A stretch of 43,098 nucleotides of DNA from Desulfonatronovibrio magnus (lineage in GTDB: Bacteria > Desulfobacterota > Desulfovibrionia > Desulfovibrionales > Desulfonatronovibrionaceae). Position 1 is the stretch's first letter, and each line of letters begins with the position of its first letter. The notes under the pieces were generated by a model. That model did not search any database and was not told the origin of the DNA. It worked only from the letters and a program-made list of their open reading frames with translations. The stretch covers positions 1-43,098 of the forward strand of contig NZ_JYNP01000050.1 in assembly GCF_000934755.1 (NCBI RefSeq). The letters are read 5' to 3'. Shown here piece after piece: positions 7,271 to 32,647 of the stretch. The position numbers and the translations under genes were made by a program.

Positions 7271-9685
7271 TCAACGAAGGGTTGGGCGTGGTTGGAATAG
7301 ATTCAACAAAAATGACACTGTAGTTCCTTTTCCGGGTTCACTTTCAATCTTCAGCCTGCTGCCATGCTTTTCAACAAGATCCCGGCACATTACAAGGCCA
7401 AGTCCGGTTCCTTTTTCACCTTCTGTGCCAAAAGTTTTTCTGACTTTGCCAAGAGAAAAAACCTGTTCCAGATGTTCTGGCGCTATTCCCACCCCATCAT
7501 CTTTGACAAATAAAGTACCCTGCTGATCATCATTAATAGAAAATGACACTGCAATGCTTCCGTGACGCTGAGTGAACTTAACAGCATTGGATGCAAGGTT
7601 GCGAATGACAGCCTTCATCATGGATTCATCAGCATAGATCTCAACAGATTCAGGCACATCTATGCTGATTTGAATATCCTTGCGTTCAGCCCAGTCTTTA
7701 ACTGTACTCAAACATGAAACCGCAAGATCAAGCAGATTCAGACGCTCTGGAGCGTACTCCATAAGCCCCTGGCTTAACTGCGACCATTCAAGAAGGTCAT
7801 CCAGCAGTGCATGAATATTGCTCAGGCTTTTATGCATTTCCTTTGCAGCGAACCGGATATCCTTTTCAGACAAATCGTCCACGCTGTCGGACAGCATTTC
7901 TGACAGGCTGATCACCCCTGCCAGAGGTGACCTGAGGTCGTGGGCCAGGATGGAATAGAACCTGTCTTTTTCCTGAGCAGCCTTTTCCAGCTCATGCTTA
8001 GCTTTGCTGATGTTTTCTTCAGCCAGCTTTCGCTCGGTAATATCTCTGGCCAGTTCCATCCTGACCATTCGCCCATCAGTCCATTTGATTGCCCGGTCAT
8101 GGCACTCATACCACTTGTCATTGAACGTGCTTCTGAATTCCCAGCGATATATTCCGGAAGGAGTGCCATCTGCATTGAGAAGCTTCGGGTTTGTGCAGAA
8201 AGAACATGGACCATCCTGTCCCTGCTGAATACTCTGCCAGCACTTTGTACCTTCAATATTTTCTCCCCACACCCTGCACCCATAACTGTTGACAAAAAGA
8301 ATTTCATAAGTCTGAAGATCTGCAATATAAATCATGGCATCCACACTATCCATGACAATAAGCAGCCGGTCATGGGCTTCGCGCAGTGCTGCTTCAATCT
8401 GTCTGCGCTCCATAAGTTCATATTCCATCTTATCCAGACTGACTTGCAGTTTCATGACCATGATGTTGAAAGAAGCTATCAGATTGCTAATCTCCACAAA
8501 ATACGAACTTTCCATAATCCTCTTATGCCCGGCTCCAGAGGCTATCTTTCCTGCTGCCAGATCCAGCATTCTTATAGGCCTTATTATCCCGTGGGTTACT
8601 AGGGCACCGGACATAAGGGCAAGCAGCAGACTCAAGACCATGACCACCTGTGAAAACCTGTTGCCCGCAGTCACGCTGGACATAAAATCCTCTTCAGGAA
8701 CCGCCACCACAATAAGCCAGTCAATGCCCCGCTTATCCTTCAGAGGCAAGACATGCAGAAAAATCTTTTTGCCTTCCAGGTAGAACTCTAAAATTTCTTT
8801 GTGCTCCACAGCCCTGATCTCGCCCTTTTCATCCAGCAGCTTGCCAACAGCACTCTGAATAATCGGATTGGATGACTCCAGCCCATGTATCCTCTGGTAT
8901 ACCTGTTCATCAGACTTTCGTTTAATCATGGGTTCATTTTCAGAAGAAGCAATTAGAAGACCGGAATGTTCCAGAATAAAAGCCTTCCCTGTTTTCCCCA
9001 CCCCAATTTTCTGGAGAAAAACAGAAATATTGGACAGAAAAACATCCACAGCAACAACCCCTGACAGCTCACCTCCTTGATCATATACTGGCTGACTGGC
9101 TGCCAGAGCCATATCCTGACCGGTAAAAAGGATGTACGCATCACTCCACACAGGTCCGCCTGCTGCAACGGCCTTCATAAACCATGGCCTTGTCCGGGCA
9201 TCAAAGCTGGAAATAATCTGAGGTCTTCCAAGGGGTTCGCCTTTGCTGTCCAGCAGATACTTGCGAAACTCACCAGCCTCAAAGCCCTCTGTCATAATCA
9301 TGTATCTCTCATCACCAGGGAATTCTCTGCCGCTGTTGATCAGACCGCCATGAATATTGCCGAAATATACGCTGGAAACTAAGGGAAACATACTGATCTG
9401 CTCAGCAAATCTTCCAGCGAGATAATTCATATCTTCCAAATCTACCCGGCCATCCTGCATGGCTCTGACATTGATGCTGTTAATTTCATGGGGCAGATGC
9501 AGAAAATTACGAATATGTTCTTCAATATGAGAAACAATTTCCAGGCGCAGATGCAGTGCCACCTCATTGACAGAGTTGCGGCTGCTGTAAAAAGAAATGA
9601 CAATGACCACACTCATTATCAGTGCGATAAAGAAAAAAGCAGCCAGCAAAGCGCTTTTGATGGAAAACCTGGCAGGAGTAATCAT
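7271..9685 (-). CDS. Membrane sensor histidine kinase: dCache-HAMP-PAS-HisKA-HATPase
   Basis: An 804-residue transmembrane kinase. TM1 is at about residues 12-33. A roughly 300-residue periplasmic double-Cache ligand-binding domain follows (motifs DARTRPWFMKAV and GVVAVDVFLSNIS), then TM2 near 343-363 and HAMP to about 415. A PAS domain at about 450-555 carries an unusual cysteine pair (GPCSFCTNPKL). The phospho-acceptor box AHDLRSPLAG has His near residue 583. The catalytic domain has N-box ASNAVKFT, G1 DDGVGIAP and G2 GTGLGLVMC. There is no receiver domain and no adjacent response regulator. Downstream on the same strand is the solute-binding protein. Before the insertion of the 155-bp element, its ATG lay only about 7 bases after the stop of the kinase gene at 9877-12135. 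Confidence 0.85.
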   Translation of the reverse strand: MITPARFSIKSALLAAFFFIALIMSVVIVISFYSSRNSVNEVALHLRLEIVSHIEEHIRNFLHLPHEINSINVRAMQDGRVDLEDMNYLAGRFAEQISMFPLVSSVYFGNIHGGLINSGREFPGDERYMIMTEGFEAGEFRKYLLDSKGEPLGRPQIISSFDARTRPWFMKAVAAGGPVWSDAYILFTGQDMALAASQPVYDQGGELSGVVAVDVFLSNISVFLQKIGVGKTGKAFILEHSGLLIASSENEPMIKRKSDEQVYQRIHGLESSNPIIQSAVGKLLDEKGEIRAVEHKEILEFYLEGKKIFLHVLPLKDKRGIDWLIVVAVPEEDFMSSVTAGNRFSQVVMVLSLLLALMSGALVTHGIIRPIRMLDLAAGKIASGAGHKRIMESSYFVEISNLIASFNIMVMKLQVSLDKMEYELMERRQIEAALREAHDRLLIVMDSVDAMIYIADLQTYEILFVNSYGCRVWGENIEGTKCWQSIQQGQDGPCSFCTNPKLLNADGTPSGIYRWEFRSTFNDKWYECHDRAIKWTDGRMVRMELARDITERKLAEENISKAKHELEKAAQEKDRFYSILAHDLRSPLAGVISLSEMLSDSVDDLSEKDIRFAAKEMHKSLSNIHALLDDLLEWSQLSQGLMEYAPERLNLLDLAVSCLSTVKDWAERKDIQISIDVPESVEIYADESMMKAVIRNLASNAVKFTQRHGSIAVSFSINDDQQGTLFVKDDGVGIAPEHLEQVFSLGKVRKTFGTEGEKGTGLGLVMCRDLVEKHGSRLKIESEPGKGTTVSFLLNLFQPRPTLR

Positions 9686-9717
9686 CTTTGGATTAATCTG
9701 TATGTTGAATATTTTGC

Positions 9718-9888
9718 GAAATAAGGTAACTTCTCAAAAACTCCGGCAATCGTAACCCAAGAAAAGACCTGGATTCCTGCTTTCGCCGGAATGACGAATG
9801 AGAACAGATCATAGCATTGTGATGTCATACCGGCAGAAGCCGGTATCCAGGAATACTGCCCGGAGTTTTTTAGAAGTTACGAAATAAG
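9718..9888. mobile_element. 155-bp palindromic element (MITE-like) with 8-bp target duplication
   Basis: The element spans 9726-9880. Its ends are inverted repeats of about 23 bases (GTAACTTCTCAAAAACTCC and the mirror ending GAAGTTAC). Inside lies a second inverted pair of about 28 bases of the CCTGGATTCC...GCCGGAATGAC type, so nearly the whole unit can fold on itself. It is flanked on both sides by GAAATAAG (9718-9725 and 9881-9888), a perfect 8-bp direct repeat expected from transposition. It encodes no protein, so it would need a transposase in trans. The end of the element supplies the TAA stop of the kinase gene on its right. Confidence 0.85.
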
Positions 9889-12135
9889 TTCCTTATCAGC
9901 CTGTTTGGCACTCAAAGGCAGGACAATCTCAAAAACGCTTCCCTGACCAGGAACGCTTTCTACAGAGATGCTGCCCTGCATCAGTTCCACCAGACGGCAA
10001 ACTATGGCCAGGCCCAGACCAGGGCCCTGACTCTTCCTCGTAAACGATGAATCAGCCTGGGCAAAAGGTTTGAACAATTCATCAACTGTTTCTTCATCCA
10101 TACCCATTCCTGTATCACTGACACAAAAATACATGTTCACCAGATTTTTGTCTTTAGACCGAACCATTCCCATCTCTAAGGTAATCCGGCCCTGATCAGA
10201 AAACTTAACAGCATTACTCACAATATTATAAAGTATCTGTCTGACTCTCGCCTCATCACCAATGAGCACATCAGGTACATCTGAACATGGAAGATAATCA
10301 AAAATAATATTTCTTTCCCGGCAGACTGCTGAAAACAGATCAACCATTTCATGCCCAAGACTGCATAAAACAAATTCTTCTTCGAGGATTTCAATTTTTC
10401 CCGACTCAAGAGCTGACATATCCAGAATATCCGACAACAATTTAGTAAGCCTGTCTCCTGATTTTATGCTTAAGTCCACATATTCCTTCTGGTTTTCAGC
10501 CAGCTCCGTCATTTCAAGGAGCTGCATCATACCCATTATGCCGTTGAGTGGAGTCCTGATTTCATGGCTCATATTGGCCATGAATTCATCCTTGGCCTCA
10601 CTGGCTGCCTGGGCTGCATCTCTGGCTTCAATGATATCCTGAACAGAGCGCATCCTGTAAACAGCCGTAGCAAAAAGATCAGCCAGAGCTTCCACCACCC
10701 TCATATCTGCGTCACTATATTCTCGCTCGGCATTGGCAAGGGCAATCTGGCCAAAAAGCTCTCCATTAAAAACTGCCGGTACTGCCAGAAACCTGTTCAC
10801 TGGAACATGTCCGTCAGGAAGGCCTCTTGAAGAGGGATGCTCTGCAGGCTTATTGGTGAAAAAAGGTTTATGAGTATTCAGCGCGTGACCGTGAAGCCCG
10901 TTATATCCATCAGAACCCTTGGGAAAGGAGATGCGCTCACTTTCAACCTGACACAGTTCTTTGCCCATCATAAAGGACAAAGTATGACCAACATTGTCAC
11001 CGCTTTCAGGGTCAATGGAAGATACAAAACCATAAGCACTGGATGTAAGTTTCAAGGCATGCTTGTGTACTTCCTGTGACAGACTGGCAATGGTTGCTTC
11101 CGGCAAAGTAATAGCTCTGGCAATCTCAGCAAGCCCCTGGTTGACATCAGATTCGCGCCTGATATGTTCCTGCGCTTCCTTGCGTGCCGAAATATCCCTC
11201 ACAAATACCAAAGCTCCGTCTAAGCCAGCGCCGGGCAGGGAAGCAGTCCTCATGGCCACACTTATGTCCCGCCCGTCCCTGGTCCGGAGGGTCAGCTCAG
11301 TGTCCTTAGAGCCTGTGGATTTCAGAGAAGCAAAACTTCGGCTGTCATTTTCGCGCGAAGCAGGAGACGGAATAAAATCATTAACACTCATACCCAGCAG
11401 TTGCTGTTTGGAATAGCCCGTCATGCGGCAGGCTGCCGGATTGGCGTCAACACACTGTCCGCTGTCATTGACTATGAAAACTCCGTATGGTGCTTTTTCA
11501 ATATAATTTTTGTATTTTTCCTCAGACTCCTGAAGCTGCTGACTGAATTTTTCCCTGGAAAGCCTCCTGACTATCAAAGTTCCAAGCAATGCTGTTCCGA
11601 GAGGATATATTAACAGCACTGGCAGGGCCACGCTGGAGATGACCACTCCGGAAATACCTCCTGGCAGAGTCAGCATCATGCCCAGCATGACTATATGTAT
11701 GACCAGACCAAAAAAAATCAGTTCTTTGAGAGAAATCAGATGCAGTGCATCTTTGCGCCTGCTCCTCCAGGCGAGACCGATAAGACCGGATGTCATGATG
11801 ACCATCACTCCTGTCCACATCCCGGCACCACTCTGAAAGATCCTGAATAAGGAGGCCATGACCATGGTAATGGCCGTGGGTATTGCCCCAAAAAAAAGAC
11901 CTGACACGCCAATAAGGATGGAACGGGTATCAAATACCACCCCGGGGATTAACGTCCAGGGAGTAAGCATTACCAGAATGCAGATCATGCTTAGAGTAAG
12001 GCCTGCTGCAGCCTGCTGGAAATAGGTTGAATCAGTTCGCCATTTTGTACCGAAAATATCGATAAGCAGTGCAGTTGCCAGAAGCAGAGCCGTATTCTGA
12101 GCCAGCGAAATCAAGGCTGGTAGTATGCTGTCCAT
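9877..12135 (-). CDS. LytS-like 5TMR membrane histidine kinase with PAS and GAF domains
   Basis: A 752-residue kinase. Residues 1-200 contain five to six hydrophobic helices of the 5TMR-LYT type (VFDTRSILIGVSGLFFG motif). A PAS domain follows (about 205-320, KAPYGVFIVNDSGQCVDANPA), then a GAF domain (about 330-495). The H-box is [12 protein letters not shown] with His near 525. The catalytic domain has N-box VSNAVKFS, G1 DTGMGMDE and G2 GPGLGLAIV, in which Pro replaces the usual Thr. No receiver domain is present. The stop codon TAA is contributed by the inserted palindromic element; the uninterrupted frame would have ended six codons later (QNIQHTD). The gene probably formed an operon with the downstream kinase. 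Confidence 0.85.
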   Translation of the reverse strand: MDSILPALISLAQNTALLLATALLIDIFGTKWRTDSTYFQQAAAGLTLSMICILVMLTPWTLIPGVVFDTRSILIGVSGLFFGAIPTAITMVMASLFRIFQSGAGMWTGVMVIMTSGLIGLAWRSRRKDALHLISLKELIFFGLVIHIVMLGMMLTLPGGISGVVISSVALPVLLIYPLGTALLGTLIVRRLSREKFSQQLQESEEKYKNYIEKAPYGVFIVNDSGQCVDANPAACRMTGYSKQQLLGMSVNDFIPSPASRENDSRSFASLKSTGSKDTELTLRTRDGRDISVAMRTASLPGAGLDGALVFVRDISARKEAQEHIRRESDVNQGLAEIARAITLPEATIASLSQEVHKHALKLTSSAYGFVSSIDPESGDNVGHTLSFMMGKELCQVESERISFPKGSDGYNGLHGHALNTHKPFFTNKPAEHPSSRGLPDGHVPVNRFLAVPAVFNGELFGQIALANAEREYSDADMRVVEALADLFATAVYRMRSVQDIIEARDAAQAASEAKDEFMANMSHEIRTPLNGIMGMMQLLEMTELAENQKEYVDLSIKSGDRLTKLLSDILDMSALESGKIEILEEEFVLCSLGHEMVDLFSAVCRERNIIFDYLPCSDVPDVLIGDEARVRQILYNIVSNAVKFSDQGRITLEMGMVRSKDKNLVNMYFCVSDTGMGMDEETVDELFKPFAQADSSFTRKSQGPGLGLAIVCRLVELMQGSISVESVPGQGSVFEIVLPLSAKQADKELIS

Positions 12136-32444: not shown

Positions 32445-32469
32445 GTTAACATTTGGTAACTGTTAACCA
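32445..32469. other. Small hairpin in the phoR-phoU gap
   Basis: GGTTAAC and GTTAACC separated by 11 bases, followed on the - strand by no clear T-tract. It is possibly an operator or a weak terminator and is otherwise unassigned. Confidence 0.3.
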
Positions 32470-32495
32470 CATTTGCTATAAGGCTATTAAAATAT

Positions 32496-32599
32496 CCTGG
32501 ATTCCGGCTTTCTCCGGAATGACGGAAAGGGGCAAGGATCTGATTTAACCGTCACCCCGGTCCCGGATCGAGTCCGGGATGACGGATCCGGGGTCCAGG
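32496..32599 (-). repeat. Dispersed repeat on the 5' side of phoU (inverted partner at 31572-31658)
   Basis: It starts CCTGGATTCCGGCTTTCTCC and ends GATCCGGGGTCCAGG. It contains its own small palindromes (ATCCGGGATGACGGATCC region). It lies in the phoR-phoU intergenic space. Confidence 0.7.
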
Positions 32600-32647
32600 T
32601 CTTCATATTCTATTTTGCTGAACAGTTACAACAGTTTAATATTTTTT

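Follow-up and report, generated by a model that had tools for sequence, protein, structure and literature searches.

The window analysed here, a 43,098-nt stretch of the genome of Desulfonatronovibrio magnus, contains two sensor kinase genes on the minus strand. Kinase 1 (9877..12135; 752 aa) has 5TMR-LYT, PAS, GAF, HisKA and HATPase_c domains, and kinase 2 (7271..9685; 804 aa) has dCache, HisKA and HATPase_c domains. Within the last codons of kinase 1 and before kinase 2 lies a 155-bp MITE (9726..9880) with no ORF of 80 aa or longer inside. Its terminal inverted repeats of 21 nt match at 20 of 21 positions; the left one (GTAACTTCTCAAAAACTCCGG, 9726..9746, plus strand) is an IS66-type end, and the right one occupies 9860..9880 on the minus strand. 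Both flanks carry an exact 8-bp target-site duplication, GAAATAAG (9718..9725 and 9881..9888), as an earlier sequence-only reading of the locus had stated. That reading had also called the element a fully palindromic one of 155 bp, which is right for the coordinates and the length but not for ‘fully’: the inner arms (28 nt, 82% match) enclose a 28-nt centre, and outer and inner arms are 21 nt apart on the left side but only 8 nt apart on the right. The predicted fold is very stable (-67 kcal/mol, z = -8.85, with none of 200 shuffles as stable), and no Rfam family reached its gathering threshold anywhere in the window. The element combines the terminal inverted repeats, the length below about 600 bp and the lack of coding sequence that characterise MITEs.

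REPs are widespread bacterial repeats, and the core of the MITE consists of two of them, of the CGTC type, with their tags facing each other (a head-to-head dimer). Unit 1 (9769..9796, minus strand) has the tag CGTC, the stem ATTCCGGC/GCAGGAAT with one mispair, the loop GAAA and the tail CCA; unit 2 (9823..9850, plus strand) has the tag TGTC, the stem ATACCGGC/GCCGGTAT, the loop AGAA and again the tail CCA. The identity of the core as a REP dimer had been overlooked before. Both units fit the definition of CGTC-1 REPs, unit 1 with its one mispair: the available text of Di Nocera et al. (2013, PMC3733652) describes a CGTC or TGTC tag, an 8-bp stem starting from AT, a 4-nt loop, a CCA tail and head-to-head dimers. 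The window dimer differs from the REPs described there in being enclosed by inverted repeats of the IS66 type that are flanked by 8-bp duplications.

The insertion can be read directly from the sequence. Kinase 1 now stops at a TAA within the right inverted repeat (9877-9879, minus strand), and its protein ends ...KELIS, in agreement with the earlier claim that the inserted element truncated this gene and supplied its stop. Joining the flanks in silico (...KELISQNIQHTD) lengthens kinase 1 from 752 to 759 aa by the C-terminal residues QNIQHTD, which are seven codons and not six as previously counted, and places its stop 7 nt before the kinase 2 ATG, the distance that had been proposed. The gap between the two genes has accordingly grown from 7 nt to 191 nt, while the 40 nt ahead of the kinase 2 ATG (9686-9725) are host sequence unaltered by the insertion. 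Functional harm to the operon finds no support: the ATPase domain match stops at residue 742 of the present 752, short of the missing residues. Kinase 1 probably suffers little from the shortened tail, and the effect on the kinases looks small. Translational coupling of kinase 1 to kinase 2 was probably lost, and the likely outcome would be a pair of kinases with intact domains, without coupling and with a hairpin in the transcript between them. An empty-site ortholog was sought and none was found among the 41 genomes searched. Kinase 2 had matches at 1e-60 in 13 of these genomes (own included), the best outside the window reaching 46% over 454 aa, and among 16 kinase 2 loci (one of them the window) with 1.5-kb flanks none but the window has kinase 1 upstream of kinase 2. 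A paralog cluster in the same genome (C34) contains similar kinases in a different order.

With at most 3 mismatches, the inverted-repeat pattern has 9 matches in the window's genome (G000), one of which, within coding DNA on contig C116, looks fortuitous. A related Desulfonatronospira genome (G006) has 48, and a reversed control pattern gave 0 matches in both. The window's genome has a second full copy on C6, 96% identical to the window copy and flanked by an 8/8 duplication, TTTCTTTG, as well as a diverged 158-bp copy on C33 (72%, without duplication) and partial copies on C114, C1 and C115. When 61 genomes were searched (own included, with up to 13 candidates scored in each), at least 29 had a match, many to the REP part alone, and the matches listed include full-length ones in G000, G006, G015 and G029. 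An exact scan of named genomes yielded 6 stretches, from Desulfonatronospira CSSed11_143, Desulfovibrionales GEM2.Bin26 (two), Deltaproteobacterium HyVt-30, Desulfobacterium TRIP and an Accumulibacter. In the distant bacterium Candidatus Accumulibacter aalborgensis, the inverted repeat occurs letter for letter at L050 4532-4552, unpaired in the examined stretch. Viral contigs gave 0 matches to the element, and plasmid records a single one, from Neisseria gonorrhoeae, that spans query positions 46-82 and hence the REP part.

The sequence-only reading had proposed a search for other copies with 8-bp duplications, and such copies are indeed present, the one on C6 among them. Duplications were scored at 27 distinct inverted-repeat pairs, a set that leaves out L051, L052 and L053 (same places as L073, L074 and L063), single unpaired repeats, G020 loci without a pair, the later-found G345, G161 and G033 elements and those with other ends. 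They are 8/8 in 15 pairs, 7/8 in 6 and at most 6/8 in 6, so that multiple copies, 21 of 27, have target-site duplications of at least 7/8; among mismatched pairings of left and right flanks, 0 of 702 reached this level. One of the six low-scoring pairs, on C114 of G006, has a 9-nt repeat out of register. The 21 duplications have an A+T content of 64%, against 54% in the flanks. No ORF of 90 aa or longer is overlapped by 17 of the 19 other copies, which makes the position of the window copy in a gene end unusual.

A search with PF03050 found matches in 6 of 16 related genomes and led to a full insertion sequence on contig C430 of G006 (L096 315-2936), 2622 bp long, with identical 22-nt ends, GTAACTTCTCAATAGTTCTGGG, and an 8/8 duplication, CAAAAACA. 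It encodes an IS66-type transposase of 539 aa and a DruA protein (DUF4338, PF14236) of 285 aa. The transposase scores 56.8 bits against PF03050 (cut-off 23.1), with only profile positions 147-282 of 284 covered, and 124 bits against the NCBIfam IS66 equivalog NF033517, whose cut-off is 180; as it misses this cut-off and belongs to a divergent branch, we refer to the partner as IS66-like. Elements of the IS66 family have 8-bp duplications and ends beginning GTAA, and in the G009 genome 5 of 9 strong IS66 loci have GTAAGCGTCC ends and exact 8-bp duplications. The partner shares both traits with the family (PF03050), as seen in L096, G264 and G045, but differs from it in having one transposase gene, often together with a DruA (DUF4338) gene, and in falling under the NCBIfam IS66 cut-off.

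The L096 element is also found in G002, a genome of the window's genus, with identity at 2611 of 2621 aligned bases (99.6%) and no duplication found. Near-identity of a full element in two genera (G002 and G006; L095 and L096) suggests recent horizontal transfer. Among 395 genomes of the phylum, the transposase had a match at 1e-20 in 7, including G264, G284, G345 and G161. The G264 element (1916 bp) lacks DruA and has similar ends, GTAACTTCTCAAAAAGTCMGGG, with an 8/8 duplication, the G284 element (2825 bp) includes DruA and has GTATCATCTCAA ends, also with an 8/8 duplication, and at the full G345 element, with identical 22-nt ends and a transposase interrupted by two stops, no duplication was found. 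In G161, the transposase has a DruA gene next to it.

The ends of the MITE match those of an autonomous element, a multicopy insertion sequence in a genome of the same order (G045) that is broken at contig ends. Its left end encloses the transposase start (55% over aa 7-73) and its right end the DruA end (74% over 93 aa). Four left ends, without a fifth (L237), were compared with four right ends, and the outer 8-mers of two of the former recur at two of the latter. Against a MITE on C66 of G006, the left end agrees at 24 of 24 nt and the right end at 25 of 26; matching left with left and right with right gives 49 of 52 positions, and swapping them gives 46. For the window copy the corresponding values are 44 and 41, with 38 of 42 positions of the ends matching, including 20 of 21 nt at the left one. 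A transposase with matching ends, which the sequence-only reading had suggested to search for, exists in related genomes; the assembly of the window's genome (134 contigs, 97.5% complete) yielded no relative of the partner transposase at E ≤ 1e-5. The sole IS66 transposase of the window's genome (C48, L018), near a contig end, showed no matching ends, and no transposase was found among the ORFs around one unpaired repeat on C48 of G006 or the L050 and L054 matches.

The DruA family owes its name to the Druantia defence system. We located genes of this family (DUF4338, PF14236) at L096 2035-2892, L128 4135-4980, L244 1-282 and L018 2714-3586. Those of L096, L128 and, across contigs, G045 reside within IS66-like elements with inverted repeats and 8-bp duplications, and in G000, G009, G012 and G161 such genes stand beside IS66 transposases. 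A search of the open-access literature found three papers that mention DUF4338 and no link of it with IS66; it is possible that the IS-borne genes are a relative or the origin of the Druantia DruA.

We believe that the window element is a non-autonomous MITE of an IS66-like insertion sequence, moved in trans and with the REP dimer as cargo, and we put the probability of this reading at roughly 0.92. Its anatomy, its duplications, its further copies and full elements with ends of the same type in related genomes were all observed, and from them we infer that a transposase of the IS66-like kind moved the window copy. The IS66-type DDE transposase would be supplied in trans by a full element that shares the ends of the MITE, and would recognise the 21-24 bp inverted repeats of the latter. 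Insertion within the final codons of kinase 1 would then have made the 8-bp duplication, brought in the head-to-head CGTC REP dimer and, through the inverted repeat, given the gene its stop after 752 codons instead of the earlier 759. The previous description of the element as MITE-like and transposase-borrowing is in this respect correct as far as can be told at the sequence level, with both copies and matching ends found. Running counter to this reading are the failure to find the partner transposase in the window's assembly, the score of that transposase under the NCBIfam IS66 cut-off, the empty-site ortholog that was sought in vain, the 6 of 27 pairs below 7/8 and the full elements of G002 and G345 and a 75-bp G161 element, which have no duplication.

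Several MITEs with a recognisable parent have been described, among them MITEAba12 with ISAba12 ends and 9-bp duplications (PMC6382973), MITECca01 of the IS982 family, which is mostly intergenic (PMC9769881), and MITEPsy1 with 4-nt duplications, probably derived from ISPsy2 (PMC3189936). According to the available text of these reports, all three resemble the window MITE in being short and non-coding and in having ends, and where given a duplication length, that match an insertion sequence, but neither a REP dimer core nor an IS66 parent is described there for them. No CGTC-REP MITE of the IS66 type was found among the matches listed in the open-access literature.

The age and present mobility of the insertion are a separate matter. 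Compatible with an IS66-like MITE is the view that the element, inserted long ago and without harm, is a stranded relic immobile in this host, to which we assign a little under an even chance. The partner transposase is absent from the window's assembly, so that the copies in this genome may be stranded; the right repeat of the window copy has one change absent from all other aligned copies, and the two full copies are 96% identical, the same value as the average over 15 aligned G006 copies. With such identities and no partner at home, the suggestion that the insertion is recent lacks support. On the other hand, both full copies keep exact 8/8 duplications, and the nearly identical insertion sequence in the same genus (G002) indicates that the partner can be present or arrive.

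It is considerably less likely that the palindrome was selected as a regulatory hairpin between the kinases, be it a terminator, an attenuator or a processing site, without any selfish insertion. The stability of the fold would suit such a role, as would some covariation: in 22 aligned copies each REP hairpin has one compensatory pair (59:66 in 4 sequences, 109:124 in 1), and the covariation score of the whole structure was reached by 1 of 500 shuffles. The excess at the local REP hairpins is weak. The number of further pair types was not raised (422 of 500 shuffles reach the value), and covariation was not in excess for long-range pairing of the REP units, where two of the scores were reached by 141 and 122 of 500 shuffles; the compensatory cells are few and may reflect two inherited events. 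A weak promoter-like match runs from the inverted repeat into the flank, but a count of 1 is at chance (mean 0.9), and a terminator scan found none at the MITE, its sole terminator-like match lying elsewhere. Moreover, 17 of the 19 other copies sit at different places, outside ORFs of at least 90 aa.

A reading of the whole element as a common REP/BIME repeat of intergenic DNA, propagated by a REP-associated tyrosine transposase (RAYT) and flanked by its octamer by coincidence, is ruled out by the excess of duplications over mismatched flank pairings and is highly improbable also in view of the IS66-like elements that end in the same kind of repeats, even though the core of the element is built of CGTC REP units, most of the 105 units in the genome lie outside MITEs and one of 10 Y1_Tnp matches there (C116, with an internal stop, L201) has a REP unit by our detector and a REP-like match about 300 bp away (C116:103314-103350), the other 9 loci having none by the detector's definition within the up to 1.5 kb examined on each side. 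A RAYT may nonetheless account for free REP units. The available text of Di Nocera et al. (2013, PMC3733652) states that CGTC REPs have no dedicated transposase and reports no RAYT linked to them; it describes the CGTC-1 dimers of Halothiobacillus neapolitanus as always lying within a 41-bp palindrome, which has other ends.

CGTC REP units numbered 105 in G000, 57 in G006, 3 in G015 and 2 in G009, counts that are biased towards units like the two of the window MITE, from which the search pattern was built. Our REP detector misses some units visible by eye (L074, L251). In G006, 47 of the 57 lie at most 160 bp from an inverted repeat, 2 in a degenerate copy and 8 elsewhere; in the window's genome, the 105 units compare with 9 inverted-repeat matches, and most therefore lie outside MITEs. 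By visual inspection, about 16 of 20 free units fetched from this genome (L149-L168) are part of a larger mosaic repeat, in which palindromes are nested and the flanks conserved. Conversely, there are relatives without REPs, of 75 bp in HyVt-30 (8/8), 278 bp in Desulfobacterium TRIP (7/8) and 217 bp in G345 (8/8), and a 103-bp G161 element (8/8) has, by eye, a REP-like palindrome without a tag. As both shorter and longer relatives have such ends and duplications without the core, the REP dimer seems not to be needed for movement.

A scan of 263 stretches for GTAAC...GTTAC pairs (60-350 bp long, duplication at least 7/8, repeat match at least 9/14) found 26 distinct elements, a number enriched by the centring of these stretches on the MITE and its partners; 150 random 5-mers gave 3 in all. 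With other ends, a 154-bp G029 element (8/8) and a 180-bp G033 element (7/8) each contain a head-to-head REP dimer by eye, of which the detector finds both units in the former and one in the latter. G006 has a second MITE family of 176-187 bp with GTAACCATTCA ends (L064 67-242, L078 526-701, L082 8935-9110, L080 1223-1399, L088 2169-2355), in which duplications are 8/8 in three copies and 7/8 in two and no REP units were found. A second CGTC-REP dimer in the window (32456-32629) lies, by eye, between GTAACTGTT and AACAGTTAC with flanks that agree at 6/8, and may be a further MITE of greater age.

We tentatively propose, while holding the odds to be somewhat against it, that CGTC REPs spread as paired cargo of IS66-type MITEs, that GTAAC ends, 8-bp duplications and dimer form a recurrent unit with several origins or episodes of divergence within Desulfovibrionales, and that many free REPs are its debris or source. 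A MITE with a REP dimer, exact target duplications and an identified IS66-like partner makes the spread of CGTC REPs directly testable, and the window MITE shows one route by which hairpin repeats can spread. It also illustrates how a small element can end a gene through its own inverted repeat, and draws attention to a lineage of insertion sequences that often bears a DruA-family gene.
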